Origin: an uncultured Desulfobulbaceae bacterium
Lineage (GTDB): Bacteria > Desulfobacterota > Desulfobulbia > Desulfobulbales > Desulfocapsaceae
DNA: 64,000 nucleotides
Reading direction: 5' to 3'
Assembly (NCBI GenBank): GCA_937910875.1
Contig: CALENA010000150.1
Coordinates: forward strand, 1-64,000
Of the stretch, positions 15,326-63,448 are shown piece after piece; position 1 is the first letter of the stretch, and every line of letters begins with the position of its first letter. The notes under the pieces are model-generated. The model did not search any database. It worked only from the letters and a program-made list of their open reading frames with translations, and was not told the origin of the DNA. Made by a program: the position numbers and the translations under genes.

Positions 15326-16738
15326 GTGTCCGAACTCTCATTTTGCACACAGCTGACGTTTCAGGAGGTGGTGAACGGGATTCCCCATGGGGTGGCCGTG
15401 CTTGACACCAGGCTCTGTATCGTCGAGATGAATACCGCTCTGGAGCGCCTGACCGGCTATTCGTCTCAAGATGCCAGCGGGGTCTACGGCGATTTTATCT
15501 TTCGCAGTAGCCTGGGGCGCAAAGGTGAGTTGTTCCGTCAGGTCCTGGCCACGGGTGAGCCTGTGGTTGCCGAAGGCGATATCCTGACCATTCATCGCCG
15601 GAAGATCCCGATCCGCTTCACCATTTCGCCCTTGAGCAACCAGGAGCAGAAGCGGGTCGGACTGCTCCTGGTTCTGGAAGATATCTCCTTGCAGCAGACC
15701 AGTCCTGACGGTCGGGGAGGAGCGGGGAAGGATCATATCCTTGGTCACAGCAAGGAGATGCTGAAGGTCTTTGACCTTTTGCCGGTCATGGCCCAGACCG
15801 ATGCCTCAGTGTTGATTACCGGGGAAACCGGGACCGGTAAGGATATGATTGCCGAGGCCATCCACAAGCGATCCAAGCGGGCTCGGCACCCTTTTATCAA
15901 GATCAACTGCGGGGCCCTGCCCGAGGCCCTGCTGGAGTCTGAGCTCTTTGGTCATGTGCGTGGTGCATTCACCGGAGCGGTCAAGGATACCCCTGGGATG
16001 TTCCGGATGGCCCAGCATGGGACCATCTTCCTCACTGAGATCGGCGATTTGCCCCTGCAACTGCAGGTCAAACTCCTGTCGGTCCTCGATGACAAGGCCT
16101 TTTATCCGGTGGGCGGGACCAAAAAAATCCAGGTGGATGTCCGGGTGATTGCCGCCACTCATCGCGCTCTGAGGAGCCAGGTCGAGGCAGGAATTTTCCG
16201 GGAGGATCTCTTTTACCGACTGAATGTCCTCCGTCTGCACCTGCCGCCTCTGCGCGAGCGGGCCGGTGATCTGCGTCTGCTCTTTGATGCCTTTCTCCAT
16301 GAATTGAGCGGTCAGTTAAACAAGGGGATGACGGGCTGTGACCCCTCGGTCTTTGAGCTGCTCGAGACCTATGGTTTCCCCGGCAATGTCCGGGAATTAC
16401 GCAATATTGTTGAGTACTGCGTCAATATCTGTCAGGGGCACAAGATCAACCCGGAATGTCTGCCTGCCTATCTCTTTGTCCAGCCAGGTGAAGATCGGCA
16501 GCAGGAAGCCATGCAAGAGCCGGCCGTGGCCAGAAAAAGCAACTTGCCACCTCCCTCCCCGGGGAAGAAGGTGCTGGATCCAGTTACAACAGTTGGTTCC
16601 GGCTGGCGTGGGATTGAAAAAGAGATGATCCTCGACGCCATGAAAAAAACCGGCGGCAATCGTTCGCAGGCGGCCAAGATCCTGGGCTGGGGTCGGACCA
16701 CCCTGTGGCGGAAATTGACCCTGCATGGTCTGTCCTGA
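15326..16738 (+). CDS. PAS-AAA-Fis sigma54-dependent transcriptional activator
   Basis: About 470 residues from a GTG at 15326; the frame is open upstream to 15251 (TTG). Domains: PAS (NGIPHGVAVLDTRLCIVEMN), AAA+ with Walker A GETGTGKD (residues 166-173), the sigma54 contact loop GAFTGA (from 213), sensor and arginine-finger region (FREDLFYRLNVL), and a Fis-type helix-turn-helix (GGNRSQAAKILGWGRTTLWRK). Walker B reads FLTEIG rather than FLDEIG, so Thr237 replaces the usual Asp. It likely activates a -24/-12 promoter such as that at 11040. Confidence 0.88.
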   Translation: MSELSFCTQLTFQEVVNGIPHGVAVLDTRLCIVEMNTALERLTGYSSQDASGVYGDFIFRSSLGRKGELFRQVLATGEPVVAEGDILTIHRRKIPIRFTISPLSNQEQKRVGLLLVLEDISLQQTSPDGRGGAGKDHILGHSKEMLKVFDLLPVMAQTDASVLITGETGTGKDMIAEAIHKRSKRARHPFIKINCGALPEALLESELFGHVRGAFTGAVKDTPGMFRMAQHGTIFLTEIGDLPLQLQVKLLSVLDDKAFYPVGGTKKIQVDVRVIAATHRALRSQVEAGIFREDLFYRLNVLRLHLPPLRERAGDLRLLFDAFLHELSGQLNKGMTGCDPSVFELLETYGFPGNVRELRNIVEYCVNICQGHKINPECLPAYLFVQPGEDRQQEAMQEPAVARKSNLPPPSPGKKVLDPVTTVGSGWRGIEKEMILDAMKKTGGNRSQAAKILGWGRTTLWRKLTLHGLS

Positions 16739-48867: not shown

Positions 48868-49281
48868 ATGCGTTGGATAACGATGACAGTGGCGATGGCT
48901 ATGGTATTGGTGTGGGGGGTTACGACCGGGGTTCAGGCCAGGCCGACAAAACGATTAGATCCCGGGACCCAGCAATGCCGGGTGCTTGACCAGGGGTCCT
49001 TGGACTGGGAGAGTGAGCCGTGGGGCATGGGCGGGATCAAGTTCCGCGAACTCTGCCAGAGCTGTCACGCCAGTGGCAATGACAAGGGTCTGGTCTTTAT
49101 CCAGCGTGAGTCGCGGACTTCCGAGGGCTGGAATCGGGTTTTTGCCAATAGCTCGGTCAAGTGTGCCCGGGATGGCTCCTGGGACAGTCTGAGCCAGGAA
49201 GATCGACTTCTGGTCAATGATTATCTGTACCGGAATGGTTCCTGGACCTATAATCCCAACGATGCCGATTCCTGCGGCTGA
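48868..49281 (+). CDS. Exported monohaem cytochrome c-like protein
   Basis: A 137-residue protein with a signal peptide (MAMVLVWGVTTGVQARP) and one CXXCH haem motif (LCQSCH). Two more Cys lie near the C terminus (VKCARDG, DADSCG) and a Trp-rich C-terminal half. Axial Met is not obvious. Probably a periplasmic electron carrier or a redox sensor. AGGAGG precedes the start. Confidence 0.82.
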   Translation: MRWITMTVAMAMVLVWGVTTGVQARPTKRLDPGTQQCRVLDQGSLDWESEPWGMGGIKFRELCQSCHASGNDKGLVFIQRESRTSEGWNRVFANSSVKCARDGSWDSLSQEDRLLVNDYLYRNGSWTYNPNDADSCG

Positions 49282-49495: not shown

Positions 49496-49861
49496 TCAGG
49501 CGGCCAGGTCAGCCGCATGTCGCTTGAAGGGGATGATTCGGCTGACTTTCCTGGGTGCCAGGTCGTTGGACAGCAGTGCCGAACAATGTTGGCGTTTTTC
49601 AAAGGGACAGTCGGTGATGTTCCAGCAGGGTGTGTAGTTGAGCAGTTTTTTGATGGCGGGGATGGAGACCCCGTGGGTGTGGACCATTTCGCGCAGGCAG
49701 CTGATCCATTCCAGGTCGTTCGTGGTGAAGGCGGACCATCGGCCTTTGCGTGCCGGGGTAAGCAGTCCTGCCTCCTCGTAGATGCGGAGAGTGCGGGGGT
49801 GGATATCGAGCATTTTGGCTGCGATCCCGGAAGAGAAGATGGCTGTGTCGGTGCTGTGCAT
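49496..49861 (-). CDS. MerR-type regulator, module copy A
   Basis: A 121-residue MerR-family regulator: SGIAAKMLDIHPRTLRIYEEAGLLTPARKGRWSAFTTNDLEWISCLREM is the winged helix, followed by a short dimer helix and a C-terminal CWNITDCPFEKRQHC Cys cluster that could bind metal or a redox cofactor. It is the third gene of a three-gene set repeated at 52013-53915; the two MerR proteins are close relatives but clearly diverged (for example WSAFTTNDLEW versus WRYFTMDDLKW). Confidence 0.88.
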   Translation of the reverse strand: MHSTDTAIFSSGIAAKMLDIHPRTLRIYEEAGLLTPARKGRWSAFTTNDLEWISCLREMVHTHGVSIPAIKKLLNYTPCWNITDCPFEKRQHCSALLSNDLAPRKVSRIIPFKRHAADLAA

Positions 49862-49934
49862 GGCGGTCCTCGCGTGCTGAATCGAAACTCTTGCTCAGGT
49901 CTGGTTTGTCAGGTTTTTGGTCGGCGTCTGCGGC

Positions 49935-51116
49935 TCAGTGGTTGTTGTGGCTATCAAAGGCCTTGCCAAAAAAGCGCTCGCCCAGAAGAAATCCCAGTCC
50001 CAGGACTCCGATGCCGCCGACAACCAGCGAAAATTCAGCAGCTGAGGGCACGTAGGAGAGATAGGTAGGCAGGTCGTCATAGCCGAGATAGATGGGGACG
50101 ATCTCGCCTGCGGCAACCAGATTGAAGCGGGAGAAGAACTGGCCGATCAGGACCATCAGGGCGGCAGTGGACATGGCCTGGATAGAGTGCATTCTGGAGA
50201 TCATCAGCAGGGCAAAGGGAAGGGCCAGGCCGATACCGATCTCAAAGATCCAGAAGGTGATGGAGAGAGGGCCGTTGATCAGAGATCGGGCGGCCAGGAT
50301 GGTTTCTTCTGAGCCGCACAGGGCATTGATGAATTTCCAGGCCGTGGCAATACCGATCAGGAAGAGCGTCAGGCCCATGATCTTCCCGGCAGCCTGCATG
50401 CCCTCAAAGGTCGTCTGGTTCATTTTTGTGCGACGCAGCAGGTGGGCGCTGAAGGTGAAAACGATGATGGCGGATGCTCCGGAGAGGAATGCACTTGCCA
50501 GGAAGAAGATGGGCAGCTGGGAGCCGTACCAGAAGGGGCGTGAGCCCAGTGAGGCAAAGACAGCGCCCAGGTTGCTGTTGGCGGAGGCCTCAGCCACGGC
50601 GCCCATGACGCCAAGGACGATAGCTGCAGAATACTTCTTGGTCAGGATCAGGTAAAATTCAACGAACATGAAGCCGACGGCCATGCCGTACAGGGTCCCC
50701 ATCCACCAGATATTCGAGGTGAGGTTGGGGAAGAAGATGTTGCCGATGGGCATGCGCCAGGGATTTTCAATTTCAAGGCCGATGACGGTAAAGGCCCCCA
50801 TGATGGCGACGATGGACAGCCAGACCATCCGGTTTCCCAGAGGGGCCAGCTTGTTGCCGCCGAAGATATGGCTGATGGCGGCCAGCAGACAGAGGCCGGT
50901 GGAGATGATGGCAAAAAAGGCGTAGGTGCCGATGAGCATGCCCCAGGGCATCTCGCGGGTATTGGCAAAGGCGTGATGGTGTCCGATGGCCTGGGCGTAG
51001 ATGCCGCCTGCCACGCCGATAAGAATGAAGCCGGCCATCAGCAGCATGAGCTTGCTGACAAGGGGTGTGGCAATCTCGGGTTCGGCGGATGTGGCGAGTG
51101 AGAAGTTGTTGGCCAT
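49935..51116 (-). CDS. NrfD/PsrC-like quinol-interacting membrane protein, module copy A
   Basis: A 393-residue integral membrane protein with about 9-10 hydrophobic segments, resembling NrfD/PsrC subunits of quinone-linked oxidoreductases (MPWGMLIGTYAFFAIISTGLC, FGGNKLAPLGNRM, NPWRMPIGN). No iron-sulfur or catalytic partner subunit is encoded beside it, only a 79-aa membrane protein and a MerR regulator. GGAG lies before ATG 51116; the open frame upstream is not coding. Very similar at the DNA level to copy B between about 50500 and 50960. Confidence 0.85.
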   Translation of the reverse strand: MANNFSLATSAEPEIATPLVSKLMLLMAGFILIGVAGGIYAQAIGHHHAFANTREMPWGMLIGTYAFFAIISTGLCLLAAISHIFGGNKLAPLGNRMVWLSIVAIMGAFTVIGLEIENPWRMPIGNIFFPNLTSNIWWMGTLYGMAVGFMFVEFYLILTKKYSAAIVLGVMGAVAEASANSNLGAVFASLGSRPFWYGSQLPIFFLASAFLSGASAIIVFTFSAHLLRRTKMNQTTFEGMQAAGKIMGLTLFLIGIATAWKFINALCGSEETILAARSLINGPLSITFWIFEIGIGLALPFALLMISRMHSIQAMSTAALMVLIGQFFSRFNLVAAGEIVPIYLGYDDLPTYLSYVPSAAEFSLVVGGIGVLGLGFLLGERFFGKAFDSHNNH

Positions 51117-51156
51117 GATGTGCTCCGGGTCGATCTGGTGGGTGTGGAAAAAGAGA

Positions 51157-51396
51157 TCAATTGGTGTGATTGCTTTTGATTTTCTGGGTAGCGGCCTCGG
51201 GCTCGGGCATTTCGCCCTGGTTCTGACGGAGGTTGCAGATGGCGATGACTGCGATGGGAGCGGCCAGGGGGCCAAGGAGCATGAACAGTGCCAGGGCCAC
51301 GATCAGGAAGAAGCCGTCGCTGATGATGCTGGCGTTGGTGTGAAGAAAGTTGCGAATGGTCAGAGGCTGGGTTGTGGTGGCGGTTTGTGCGGTCAT
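51157..51396 (-). CDS. 79-aa membrane protein, module copy A
   Basis: A small protein with one or two hydrophobic segments (SDGFFLIVALALFMLLGPLAAPIAVIAI), a Thr-rich N terminus and a hydrophilic C terminus (NLRQNQGEMPEPEAATQK). Function unknown; likely a subunit or assembly partner of the NrfD-like protein 40 bp downstream. CAGGAGA precedes the start. Upstream leader holds a CGGCG/CGCCG hairpin conserved in copy B. Confidence 0.8.
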   Translation of the reverse strand: MTAQTATTTQPLTIRNFLHTNASIISDGFFLIVALALFMLLGPLAAPIAVIAICNLRQNQGEMPEPEAATQKIKSNHTN

Positions 51397-51525
51397 GGCG
51401 TTCTCCTGGGTCGTATCGGCGTTTGAGGCGCCGTTTGTCTTTGTCTTCCATGTAGCAAGGGGTGTGCCATATTGCCGGATGGATGGTTCTCTGTGTTGGT
51501 TTATGGCCTATCAGGCTGAAATCAA

Positions 51526-51559
51526 ATGAGTATATAATTGTATATCAGAGTGTCAGGTG
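51526..51559 (-). promoter_or_regulatory. Candidate promoter of module copy A
   Basis: On the minus strand, CTGACA and TATACT are 16 bp apart about 130 bp ahead of the 79-aa gene. The spacer includes ATATACAATTATAT, a near-palindrome. The location is suggestive only. Confidence 0.4.
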
Positions 51560-51633
51560 GCAGTTACCAGATATTTGATATAGGATTTTTCAGCAGAAGG
51601 GCGCAAGGCGAGCCATTAGACCGTGGGGGCAGG

Positions 51634-51827
51634 GGCCCATTGTGCGTCCTTGTTGTGGTTTGCATGGTCGTCTTTGTGTAAGACAACTAGATGATTTTGT
51701 TCAGGACAATGGCAGAAGAGATCTGCTGGGGTTCAGGGGCAGGTGAGGTGGGCGGCCAGCTGGATTTCGGGCTTGCCGTCGAATGCCTTGGGGGAAGATT
51801 CGGGAGATGTGGGCGCATGATGCGCCC
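51634..51827. promoter_or_regulatory. Two GGCGCA/TGCGCC palindromes between the modules
   Basis: GGGCGCATGATGCGCCC at 51811-51827 is a perfect 17-bp palindrome; GGCCCATTGTGCGTCC at 51634 is a weaker relative. Both match the motif seen upstream of copy B. The gap 51397-52012 otherwise has a terminator at 51944 and no convincing gene. Confidence 0.5.
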
Positions 51828-51943
51828 ATGGTTTGTCGGCGGGCTCTGGAGGAGTTGCGGTAAAGCGGTGTTTACAGATGGTTGAGTCTGTGGATTGATG
51901 GGATGCCCGGCAGGGATTCGTTCCGGTCAGGGTGGAGGCTCAG

Positions 51944-51990
51944 CAGCAAAAGGAGGCGTGGTCGACAGACGGCTGCACCTCCTTTTGCTG
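51944..51990 (-). terminator. Hairpin terminator after module copy B
   Basis: CAGCAAAAGGAGG (51944-51956) and CCTCCTTTTGCTG (51978-51990) are perfect 13-bp arms, 22 bp past the MerR copy B stop. Confidence 0.75.
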
Positions 51991-52012
51991 TTTCCATAAA
52001 CTGGCTTGGTAA

Positions 52013-52378
52013 TCAGGCGGCCAGGTCAGCCACATGCCGCCTTAAGGGAATTACCCGGCTGATTTTTTTGGGCACCAGGCTGTTGGAGAGAAAGGCTGAG
52101 CAGCGTTGGCGTTTTTCAAAGGGACAGTCGGTGATGTTCCAGCAGGGTGTGTATTTGAGCAGTTTTTTGATGGCGGCGATGGAGACCCCGTGGGTGTGGA
52201 TCATTTCGCGCAGGCAGCTGACCCATTTCAGGTCGTCCATGGTGAAGTAGCGCCAGCGGCCTTTGCGTGCCGGGGTGATCAATCCTTCTTCTTCGTAGAT
52301 GCGGAGGGTGCGGGGGTGAATGTCGAGCATCTCGGCAGCGATTCCAATAGTGAAGATGGCTTTGTCGTCCGTGTACAT
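52013..52378 (-). CDS. MerR-type regulator, module copy B
   Basis: A 121-residue paralogue of the regulator at 49496 with the same layout: TIGIAAEMLDIHPRTLRIYEEEGLITPARKGRWRYF and a C-terminal CWNITDCPFEKRQRC cluster. Start at 52378 (MYTDDKA) has GAGG upstream; the open frame continues further but with no conserved sequence. It is the last gene of the second operon copy. Confidence 0.88.
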   Translation of the reverse strand: MYTDDKAIFTIGIAAEMLDIHPRTLRIYEEEGLITPARKGRWRYFTMDDLKWVSCLREMIHTHGVSIAAIKKLLKYTPCWNITDCPFEKRQRCSAFLSNSLVPKKISRVIPLRRHVADLAA

Positions 52379-52449
52379 GTCAGGCCTCGTCTTGTGTGCC
52401 CGGACTCCTTGTGAGCCCGGGCGTATTTTTGTAGAGCGAATGTTCGTGA

Positions 52450-53631
52450 TCAATGGTGTCCGTTAGTCTCAAAGGCTTTGCCGAAGAAGCGTTCGCCCAG
52501 GAGGAAGCCCAGTCCGAGGACTCCGATGCCGCCGATGACCAGGGAGAATTCCGCGGCTGAGGGCATGTAGGAGAGGTAGGTGGGCAGGTCGTCAAAGCCG
52601 CGGTAGATGGGAACGATCTGGCCTGCGGCAACCAGGTCGAAGCGGGAGAAGAACTGGCCGACCAGGACCATCAGAGCGGCAGTGGACATGGCCTGGACTG
52701 AGCGCATTCTGGTGATCATCAGCAGGGCAAAGGGCAGGACCAGGCCGATGGTGATTTCAAAGATCCAGAAATTGATGGCCAAGGGCCCGTTGAGCAGTGC
52801 CTGGGCGGCCAGGATGGTCTCTTCTGAGCCGCACAGGGCGTTGATGAATTTCCAGGAGGTGGCGATGGAGACCAGGAAGAGCATCAGGGCCATGATCTTA
52901 CCGGCAGTCTGCATGCCTTCGAAGGTTGTTTTGTCCATTTCTGTCCGGCGCAGAACGTTGGCATAGTGAGTGAAGATGATAATGGCGGCAGCCCCGGAGA
53001 GGAACGCGCATCCCAGGAAGAAGATGGGCAGCTGGGAGCCGTACCAGAAGGGGCGTGAGCCCAGTGAGGCAAAGACAGCGCCCAGGTTGCTGTTGGCGGA
53101 GGCCTCAGCCACGGCGCCCATGACGCCAAGGACGATAGCTGCAGAATACTTCTTGGTCAGGATCAGGTAAAATTCAACGAACATGAAGCCGACGGCCATG
53201 CCGTACAGGGTCCCCATCCACCAGATATTCGAGGTGAGGTTGGGGAAGAAGATGTTGCCGATGGGCATGCGCCAGGGATTTTCAATTTCAAGGCCGATGA
53301 CGGTAAAGGCCCCCATGATGGCGACGATGGACAGCCAGACCATCCGGTTGCCTAGAGGGGCCAGTTTGTTGCCGCCGAAGATATGGCTGATGGCGGCCAG
53401 CAGGCAGAGACCGGTGGAGATGATGGCAAAAAAGGCGTAGGTGCCGATAAGCATGCCCCAGGGCATATCGCGGGTATTGGCAAAGGCGTGATGGTGTCCG
53501 ATGGCCTGGGCATAGATGCCGCCTGCCACTCCGATCAGGATGAAGCCGGCCATCAGCAGCATGAGCTTGTTGACAAGGGGGGTGGCGATGCGGGGTTCGG
53601 CAGTTGCAGTGAGCGAGAAATTTTTGGTCAT
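52450..53631 (-). CDS. NrfD/PsrC-like membrane protein, module copy B
   Basis: 393 residues, same length as copy A. The N terminus starts MTKNFSLTATAEPRIATPLV. Residues in the middle of the protein are identical to copy A over long runs, while the ends differ more, so recent duplication or gene conversion is likely. TTGGAGT precedes ATG 53631. No catalytic partner is nearby. Confidence 0.85.
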   Translation of the reverse strand: MTKNFSLTATAEPRIATPLVNKLMLLMAGFILIGVAGGIYAQAIGHHHAFANTRDMPWGMLIGTYAFFAIISTGLCLLAAISHIFGGNKLAPLGNRMVWLSIVAIMGAFTVIGLEIENPWRMPIGNIFFPNLTSNIWWMGTLYGMAVGFMFVEFYLILTKKYSAAIVLGVMGAVAEASANSNLGAVFASLGSRPFWYGSQLPIFFLGCAFLSGAAAIIIFTHYANVLRRTEMDKTTFEGMQTAGKIMALMLFLVSIATSWKFINALCGSEETILAAQALLNGPLAINFWIFEITIGLVLPFALLMITRMRSVQAMSTAALMVLVGQFFSRFDLVAAGQIVPIYRGFDDLPTYLSYMPSAAEFSLVIGGIGVLGLGFLLGERFFGKAFETNGHH

Positions 53632-53675
53632 GGTGTACTCCAAGTTAATATGGCGGTAGGCAAAGAGTGACTTGA

Positions 53676-53915
53676 TCAATTGGTGTGATTGCTTTTGATT
53701 TTCTGGGTTGCGACCTCGGGCTCGGGCATTTCGCCCTGGTTCTGACGGAGGTTGTAGATGGCGATGACTGCGATGGGAGCGGCCAGGGGGCCAAGGAGCA
53801 TGAATAGTGTCAGGGCCACGATCAGGAAGAAGCCGTCGCTGATGATGCTGGCGTTGGTGTGAAAAAAGTTGCGAATGGTCAGAGACTGGGTTGTGGTGGC
53901 AGTTTGTGCGGTCAT
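53676..53915 (-). CDS. 79-aa membrane protein, module copy B
   Basis: Near-identical to the copy A protein: differences include QSLTIRNFF for QPLTIRNFL and AIYNLRQ for AICNLRQ. Same start context (GGAGAACGCC) and same upstream leader. It opens the second operon copy. Confidence 0.82.
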   Translation of the reverse strand: MTAQTATTTQSLTIRNFFHTNASIISDGFFLIVALTLFMLLGPLAAPIAVIAIYNLRQNQGEMPEPEVATQKIKSNHTN

Positions 53916-54111
53916 GGCGTTCTCCTTGGTCGTGTCGGCGTTTGAGGCGCCGTTTGTCTTTGTCTTCCATGTAGCAAGAGGTGTGCCATGTTCTGTTGTT
54001 CTGGCTGATGTGTAGCTGTGTTTTGTGGTAACGTTTTGAACTGTCGTGAAAAAATATATTGCAAGCTGGTATGTTCAAGGTTTATTGCTAAAAATTTAGT
54101 TCAAAACATCT

Positions 54112-54176
54112 CCCCTCTATGGCGCATTGTACGCCTTAAGGGGGAGACGAGTAGGGCGCACAATGCGCCATAGGGG
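54112..54176. promoter_or_regulatory. Inverted repeat holding two GGCGCA/TGCGCC palindromes
   Basis: TATGGCGCATTGT (54118-54130) and ACAATGCGCCATA (54160-54172) are exact complements, extended by CCCC/GGGG. Each arm is itself a palindromic site (GGCGCA..TGCGCC-like). Lies 200 bp upstream of module copy B. The surrounding 53916-54646 gap has no convincing gene. Confidence 0.6.
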
Positions 54177-61822: not shown

Positions 61823-63448
61823 ATGGGCAGCTTTCACTCTCTGATCACGGCTCCGGCCCATGGGGATCTGTCGCGTCTGGCCCTGTCACCCTATGACCTG
61901 ACTCCAGATGGAGCGCTGACAGCGAATCGGTTGCGTCGTTATCGGGTCTCGGCTCTCGGCTTTGATCTCTTTTACGGGATGGAGCGGCTTGATGACGAAG
62001 TGCTTGCTGCTCTTGCGCGTCTGGCCGGTCAATGCGGTCTGGTTGAGCAGTTCCGGGCCATGCGTCGGGGCGCGATCATCAACCGGATTGAAAAGTATCC
62101 CTCTGAGAATCGTCAGGTCCTTCATACGGCCTGTCGCGATCTCTTTGACCAGCCGGCGGCTGAGCCCGGGGCCTCTGCAACGGCTGCGGTTGAGCTTGAA
62201 AAGCTGCACCATTTTCTGGCGGACCTGGAACAGGGACTGTTGCTGAATGAGCAGGGCCAGCCCTTTGATACCTTGATTCAGGTAGGGATAGGAGGTTCTG
62301 ATCTTGGACCGCGGGCGGTGTTTGAGGCCCTGCGGGCCTACAGCCTTCCCGCACGTGAGGTCTGTTTTATCGCCAACGTTGATCCTGATGACGCGGCCGC
62401 GGTCCTCTCCCGGGTCAATCTGGCCACCACCCTGGTCAACGTGGTTTCCAAGAGCGGTTCGACCCTGGAGACCGCCACCAATGAGGCCCTGGTGCGGGCG
62501 GCTCTGGTTCGCAAGGGTCTGGATCCAGCCCGCCATTGTCTCTGTGTGACCGGGGTGGGTAGCCCCATGGATAATCCGGCCCGATATCTCCGCTCGTTTT
62601 ACATGACTGAGAGTGTCGGTGGCCGGTTCAGCGCCACGTCCATGGTTGGCCTGGTGGCCCTGGGTTTTGCTCTTGGCTTTGAGCAGGTCATGGAATTTCT
62701 CCGCGGGGCCGCTGAGATGGACTGTCTGGCAGAGGAGGCTGATCCGCAGAAGAATCCGGCCCTGCTCCTGGCCCTGATCGGTATCTGGAACCACAATTAC
62801 CTCGGCTGTTCAACACTGGCTGTGCTGCCTTACGCTCAGGCCCTGCACCGATTTCCGGCCCATCTCCAGCAATGCGACATGGAGTCCAACGGGAAGTCCG
62901 TGAGGCGCAATGGCGAGCAGGTGACGATCCAGACCGGGCCGGTGGTCTGGGGGGAACCTGGAACCAATGGCCAGCACGCCTTTTATCAGCTCCTTCATCA
63001 GGGGACTGAGATCGTGCCGATCGAATTTATCGGTTTCCGTCACAGTCAGTATGGGGTTGATCTGGAGTGCGAGGGTAGCAGCTCCCAGGAAAAGCTGGTT
63101 GCTAATCTTCTGGCCCAGTCTCTGGCACTGGCCGTGGGGCGCGCAAGTGACAATCCGAACCGGGCCTTTCAGGGAAACAGACCCAGTCTGCTCCTGCTGG
63201 GTGAGCGGCTGACGCCACATGCCATGGGGACCCTGCTGGCCCTTTACGAGGCCAAGATTGTCTTTCAGGGCTTTTGCTGGGATGTTAATTCCTTTGATCA
63301 GGAAGGGGTTCAGCTGGGAAAGGTTCTGGCAGCCGAGATTCTGACCTGCATGCGGGGGGGGGCTGGAGAGGCAGGCGAGACCAGAGGGATCAGCGGGGAA
63401 TATGTCCTGCTGGCTGGAATGGCGCGAAAGGACGCCTTTATAAAATGA
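61823..63448 (+). CDS. pgi: Glucose-6-phosphate isomerase
   Basis: A 541-residue isomerase of the PGI family. Motifs: GIGGSDLGPRAV, VVSKSGSTLETATN, GGRFSATSMVGLVALGF, DMESNGKSV, GTNGQHAFYQLLHQG and the C-terminal YEAKIVFQGFCWDVNSFDQEGVQLGK. It links glucose-6-phosphate and fructose-6-phosphate in the cytoplasm. The start at ATG 61823 has GGGAG upstream; a GTG three bases earlier is possible. Two-gene unit with rpe. Confidence 0.95.
   Translation: MGSFHSLITAPAHGDLSRLALSPYDLTPDGALTANRLRRYRVSALGFDLFYGMERLDDEVLAALARLAGQCGLVEQFRAMRRGAIINRIEKYPSENRQVLHTACRDLFDQPAAEPGASATAAVELEKLHHFLADLEQGLLLNEQGQPFDTLIQVGIGGSDLGPRAVFEALRAYSLPAREVCFIANVDPDDAAAVLSRVNLATTLVNVVSKSGSTLETATNEALVRAALVRKGLDPARHCLCVTGVGSPMDNPARYLRSFYMTESVGGRFSATSMVGLVALGFALGFEQVMEFLRGAAEMDCLAEEADPQKNPALLLALIGIWNHNYLGCSTLAVLPYAQALHRFPAHLQQCDMESNGKSVRRNGEQVTIQTGPVVWGEPGTNGQHAFYQLLHQGTEIVPIEFIGFRHSQYGVDLECEGSSSQEKLVANLLAQSLALAVGRASDNPNRAFQGNRPSLLLLGERLTPHAMGTLLALYEAKIVFQGFCWDVNSFDQEGVQLGKVLAAEILTCMRGGAGEAGETRGISGEYVLLAGMARKDAFIK

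Follow-up and report, generated by a model that had tools for sequence, protein, structure and literature searches.

The analysed window is a stretch of 64,000 nucleotides (nt) from contig CALENA010000150.1 of an uncultured Desulfobulbaceae bacterium related to marine sulfate reducers, and it carries a tandem pair of minus-strand three-gene units. As confirmed by translation and alignment, copy A (49496-51396) and copy B (52013-53915, the first in transcription order) encode, in the same order and with equal lengths, a membrane protein of 79 amino acids (aa), an NrfD-like protein of 393 aa and a MerR-type regulator of 121 aa (Table 1). The pair probably supplies an NrfCD/CbcSTU-type quinol:cytochrome c oxidoreductase with extra, diverged and co-regulated membrane subunits that share one iron-sulfur (Fe-S)/cytochrome unit. 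The original prediction, made from the window alone, saw a self-contained quinone unit of two membrane proteins with its own regulator. Such a new two-protein machine is less likely; the genes most likely encode extra membrane parts of an undescribed form of a known kind of respiratory complex. The pair belongs to an arrangement that is common in Desulfobulbales and has no description in the literature searched, in which no paper linking NrfD with MerR was found for names beginning with Desulfobulb.

Do the 79-aa and NrfD genes have partners in other genomes? Scanning bacterial genomes yielded 79 loci, most of them in records with the label Desulfobulbales or Deltaproteobacteria. The usual layout consists of a sigma-54 activator gene with multiple PAS domains, a divergent Fe-S protein gene, a c7-type cytochrome gene, and then the 79-aa, NrfD and MerR genes, and it is often extended by one or two more NrfD-MerR pairs of a second type. 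The Fe-S protein of the relatives has an N-terminus of the twin-arginine translocation (Tat) type and several 4Fe-4S motifs. Partners were scored within 3.5 kb upstream of those type-1 NrfD genes, the type found in the window, that have at least 3 kb of upstream sequence (n = 69). Both the Fe-S and the c7-type cytochrome genes lie upstream of 51 of the 69, neither lies upstream of 17, and one has the cytochrome gene alone. Among 58 related genomes, the Fe-S gene was found in all 31 that have a type-1 NrfD (at least 51% identity). The notion of a self-contained unit is thus not supported, as the neighbour search recovered the very partners whose discovery the prediction had named as evidence against itself. 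The predicted absence of Fe-S and catalytic partners holds beside the pair, where no Fe-S, multiheme or molybdopterin gene was seen in the window, but it does not hold genome-wide, since an Fe-S gene lies on another contig (C112). In five loci of relatives (L061, L062, L064, L079 and L080), type-1 and type-2 NrfD-MerR genes occur with no Fe-S gene nearby, and the start of the gene next to them resembles, by eye, aldehyde ferredoxin oxidoreductase.

The assignment to the NrfD family was sound: the two proteins score 83.8-89.2 bits against Pfam PF03916, whose cut-off is 25.8. HmcC and DsrP identities were rejected, since the scores of 38.8 and 23.2 bits are below the curated NCBIfam equivalog cut-offs of 550 and 350 bits, respectively. 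A structure model built from 55 relatives, with a predicted local distance difference test (pLDDT) score of 86, has the fold of two four-helix bundles known from ActC and PsrC, and it matches ActC of alternative complex III with a template modelling (TM) score of 0.82 to 6f0k_C and 6lod_C (Foldseek E 1e-8 to 1e-10 against ActC chains). Calisto and Pereira (PMC8076601) highlighted a quinone protonation residue and a mid-membrane arginine. In the present alignment, the invariant E115 falls on ActC His139, in a weak segment, and R330 falls on ActC Arg395. Both residues are kept in copies A and B, which supplies an acidic candidate for the quinone site and an arginine for the mid-membrane gate.

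The genome assembly is fragmented into 192 contigs and has three type-1 units, namely the window pair and one on C143, where the contig ends just upstream of the 79-aa gene. The Fe-S gene on C112 is cut by the contig end after 113 residues; it is 88% identical to its counterpart in the sister species Candidatus Desulfatifera sulfidica, and a multi-PAS activator gene of the Sigma54_activat kind adjoins it (58% identity). Since a locus of the sister species (L008) carries the Fe-S, cytochrome, small-protein, NrfD and MerR genes in one piece, C112, a gap and C143 are probably one locus. Cultured relatives in which the locus is intact include Desulforhopalus singaporensis (L039) and Desulfobulbus elongatus (L054). 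At the position of the window pair, the sister species has a single orphan unit (L007) with the same neighbours on either side.

Each copy is preceded by a perfect sigma-54 (-24/-12) promoter with GG and GC elements at the fixed spacing, TGGCACACCCCTTGCT for copy A and TGGCACACCTCTTGCT for copy B. No other perfect match occurs in the 64 kb, and the position relative to the 79-aa gene is the same in both copies. Of the 62 sigma-54 sites in 1.08 Mb of loci, 43 are located upstream of NrfD; in shuffled sequence, the total was 8-18 sites. Upstream of the sigma-54 sites, palindromes of an activator type (GRCGCAYNRTGCGYC) were found, four in the window versus 0.14 expected, all of them upstream of the two units. 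Copy A has a degraded palindrome (3 mismatches) where one would be expected near -145 (51600-51614). At the C143 unit, the pair (-178/-147) is weaker, with 2 mismatches in each palindrome. In 38 relatives, 57 palindromes occur in 19 kb upstream of the units (3.0 per kb) versus 37 in 500 kb elsewhere (0.07 per kb), and they are often paired about 34 bp apart, near -180/-147 or -170/-135. Because the consensus came from inspection by eye of the regions of copies A and B, L007 and L008, the palindromes of these four are not independent evidence; those of the other 36 relatives are. The promoters and palindromes stand at matching distances and are conserved in relatives, so that the two copies seem to belong to a single regulon. 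The MerR protein would then be only a part of the control. The activator encoded on C112 is a candidate for binding the GRCGCAYNRTGCGYC palindromes, as suggested by their co-occurrence.

In the favoured reading, the NrfD-like protein would exchange electrons with the pool of quinones, perhaps also moving protons, and the 79-aa protein would serve as an accessory subunit in the membrane. Electrons would be carried in the periplasm by the Fe-S protein and the c7-type cytochrome; these two would be encoded once, at the separate locus split across C112 and C143, and shared in trans. All three membrane units would be turned on via their sigma-54 promoters by the same PAS-type activator, whose gene adjoins the Fe-S gene and which would bind the upstream palindromes, and the Cys-rich MerR of each unit may add a second control of a redox or thiol type. 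Partner sharing, the direction of electron flow, the pairing of activator and palindromes, and the MerR signal are proposed steps. Several points weigh against this reading. The binding of the Fe-S protein to the window NrfDs is putative, and the adjacency of C112 and C143 is modelled on L008. No cytochrome matching the c7 protein of relatives was found in the genome, and its gene is placed tentatively in the gap between the two contigs. The intergenic region between the Fe-S and activator genes on C112 has neither a palindrome nor a sigma-54 site and thus shows no visible sign that the Fe-S gene belongs to this regulon. Moreover, since 17 of the 69 type-1 NrfDs in relatives have no local Fe-S or cytochrome gene, some may use other partners.

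These 17 units would also fit the reading that the window units work alone, as a quinone or proton device of two membrane proteins without an Fe-S partner. So would the bare neighbourhood of the pair and the orphan unit at L007, whose retention in the sister species suggests that the orphan state is stable. However, every related genome with a type-1 NrfD also has the Fe-S gene, and NrfD retains the quinone-site and gate residues known from NrfD subunits with an Fe-S partner; a stand-alone function is therefore unlikely. There is also little chance that the 79-aa protein and NrfD form Fe-S-free devices in which NrfD alone serves as a quinone/proton module or as a sensor informing the Cys-rich MerR. 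Alternatively, the window NrfDs might pair with other Fe-S proteins of the genome instead of the C112 one, as other NrfD-family complexes with their own Fe-S proteins are encoded, e.g., beside the NrfD genes on C10 and C126. These complexes have their own NrfD subunit, however, and the type nearest to the window NrfDs is the Fe-S-linked one of C143 and L008, which makes such a pairing improbable.

The two copies are 96.7% identical at the nucleotide level in the 79-aa gene, 89.5% in NrfD and 84.2% in MerR, in line with the predicted stronger divergence of the regulators. When plotted in 60-nt steps along the operons, the identity reaches about 95-97% in most of the 79-aa gene and drops to 70-79% in the stretch before NrfD. 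The first half of NrfD has 92-100% and its second half 68-93%; the lowest values, in parts of NrfD, are 68-73%, and the middle of the gene attains 100%. The predicted near base-for-base match in the middle of NrfD (50500-50960 versus 53015-53475) comes close to an exact match of 337 nt, synonymous sites included. There is no synonymous difference between the copies in the middle of NrfD, versus a synonymous divergence (dS) of 0.5 in its 3′ part. Since selection at the protein level alone would not keep synonymous sites identical, recent gene conversion may have caused this identical tract within more diverged DNA. With the sister species as the sole outgroup, 24 amino acid changes in MerR were polarised to copy A, one to copy B, and three are ambiguous, and the NrfD changes are likewise skewed to copy A. 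Copy A thus appears to be diverging faster than copy B. Its MerR protein has lost R43 and Y44, residues of the DNA-binding domain that are present in all 47 other homologues compared. It may be that copy A is a decaying duplicate, in which NrfD was refreshed by gene conversion from copy B and the regulator is degenerating, and the skewed MerR changes, the degraded palindrome and the identical tract would agree with this. Nevertheless, all three frames of copy A are intact, its sigma-54 site is perfect, and its NrfD has lost no family-invariant residue, with a ratio of nonsynonymous to synonymous divergence (dN/dS) between the copies of 0.23. I regard decay as a minor possibility.

The dN/dS value and the persistence of the three genes together in relatives indicate that the units are real genes. 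The tandem duplication also stands, as the differences between the copies and in both flanks make a plain assembly duplicate unlikely. A joining of two strains by the assembler would be suspected from the fragmentation of the genome, the single unit of the sister species and the exact 337-nt repeat, which is hard for short-read assemblers. It is nonetheless very improbable, because the coding sequences diverge by 3-16% between the copies, the upstream regions are distinct, with a separate promoter and separate palindromes for each copy, and copy A is followed by an extra gene. The assembler could have swapped the pairing of the 5′ and 3′ halves across the exact repeat. In a tree, copy B and the orphan unit of the sister species are joined (support 98/62) with copy A outside, all near the C143/L008 type. 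The date of the duplication is uncertain because of conversion and unequal rates, and the synonymous distances of different segments disagree on its order relative to the species split because of the identical tract. Another tandem 79-aa/NrfD/MerR unit was found in L019 (5057-7740 and 8619-11302); it is identical over 2684 nt and is possibly a recent duplication or an assembly artefact.

Among known systems, CbcSTU (Cbc4) of Geobacter is a menaquinol:ferricytochrome c oxidoreductase composed of a c-type cytochrome, an Fe-S protein and a membrane subunit (PMC11434368). The same three kinds of subunit are seen here, compared by description and not by subunit homology. The difference is that here the gene for the membrane protein forms a sigma-54 unit of its own with the 79-aa and MerR genes and is duplicated away from the Fe-S/cytochrome genes. 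Of the genes expected for an NrfCD/CbcSTU-type complex, an Fe-S gene is absent beside the window pair but lies on C112 and is adjacent in 51 of 69 cases in relatives, and a c-type cytochrome gene, not found in this genome, is present at the intact locus of the sister species. The Ohc complex of Desulfovibrio (ohcBAC) also combines an Fe-S protein, a multiheme cytochrome and a membrane subunit under sigma-54 control, with the activator gene DVU3142 divergent from the operon; however, the description there gives OhcC as a membrane protein with haem b and mentions neither a MerR nor a 79-aa protein (PMC4641369). SirCD of Shewanella, an Fe-S protein with an NrfD/PsrC-type quinol dehydrogenase, can feed several pathways, but a c7 cytochrome, a MerR and a duplication are not described there (PMC11434368, PMC8524038). 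ActC (6f0k, 6btm, 6lod) resembles the window protein in predicted fold (TM 0.81-0.82) and aligned key residues but is a part of a large multi-subunit complex and is only 17-19% identical. If the favoured reading is correct, the NrfD family in Desulfobulbales gains a complex of modular build. Its membrane subunit would form a sigma-54 unit that is under separate control, has been duplicated repeatedly and includes the conserved 79-aa partner and the Cys-rich MerR. Sharing of the partners, if it occurs, would let cells adjust their quinone coupling by exchanging membrane subunits on a single electron carrier. Direct predictions follow from the logic of the regulon, with its activator, palindromes and promoters.

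The 79-aa protein has no match among Pfam or NCBIfam models. With its homologues in relatives it forms a conserved family, characterised by the stretch ...SE.FWF...LF..LGPF.A... and an acidic end, and its gene lies before NrfD or, in one clade, after MerR. The MerR protein exceeds the cut-off of PF13411. Its best NCBIfam match is the MerR-type repressor HspR (NF047375), but HspR membership was rejected, as 48.6 bits is far below the cut-off of 105 and the window protein has an extra pattern of four cysteines, three of them C-terminal. These are invariant in the family and suggest Fe-S, metal or thiol sensing; no described MerR family with such a four-Cys HspR-like pattern was identified. In a model built to look for a cysteine cluster, residues 91-121 have a pLDDT below 50. 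A palindrome, AATGAATNNNNATTCATT, was considered as the MerR operator and rejected here, since it precedes the Fe-S gene in some relatives and does not occur in the C112 intergenic region. It is a possible MerR operator in several Desulfobulbus/Desulfocapsa loci, where it lies before the Fe-S gene (L048, L058, L060, L066, L068, L069, L071, L073, L077, L078 and L082). A near match with 1 mismatch at window position 63444 has no known link.

Table 1. Features of the two units in the window
Feature	Position	Strand	Basis or remark
Copy B 79-aa membrane protein	53676..53915	-	family alignment; ...EGFWF...LF..LGPF.A...EPE... family; probably one transmembrane helix
Copy B NrfD-like membrane subunit, 393 aa	52450..53631	-	profile match and predicted ActC-like fold
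Copy B HspR-like MerR, ancestral-like copy	52013..52378	-	family alignment, profile searches; four invariant Cys (C55, C79, C85, C93; numbering of copy B protein)
Copy A 79-aa membrane protein	51157..51396	-	nucleotide identity to copy B
Copy A NrfD-like membrane subunit, 393 aa	49935..51116	-	profile match, alignment; E115 and R330 kept
Copy A MerR	49496..49861	-	alignment; R43/Y44 and near-invariant T10/I11 lost
Identical 337-nt tract, putative gene-conversion tract	50498..50834 and partner in copy B 53013..53349	-	copy alignment
Copy A sigma-54 promoter	51454..51469	-	perfect match
Copy B sigma-54 promoter	53973..53988	-	perfect match; position conserved in relatives
Copy B proximal palindrome	54121..54135	-	1 mismatch; 147 nt upstream of sigma-54 site
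Copy B second palindrome, GGCGCATTGTGCGCC	54155..54169	-	0 mismatches; 181 nt upstream
Copy A palindrome	51634..51648	-	1 mismatch; 179 nt upstream
Copy A distal palindrome	51812..51826	-	0 mismatches; 357 nt upstream

Convergent with copy A, the window encodes a 137-aa protein (48868-49281, plus strand) with a signal-like N-terminus and one CxxCH heme motif but no Pfam match. A paralogue (48%) is encoded on C41, and 18 of the 58 related genomes have homologues. This monoheme-like protein was rejected as the missing partner because, among the matches listed, the homologues are on contigs other than those of the NrfD units, and because it is absent at the sister species' locus, which has no room for it. 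A second sigma-54 activator is encoded at 15353-16471 (plus strand), with 42% sequence similarity to the NrfD-linked PAS type.

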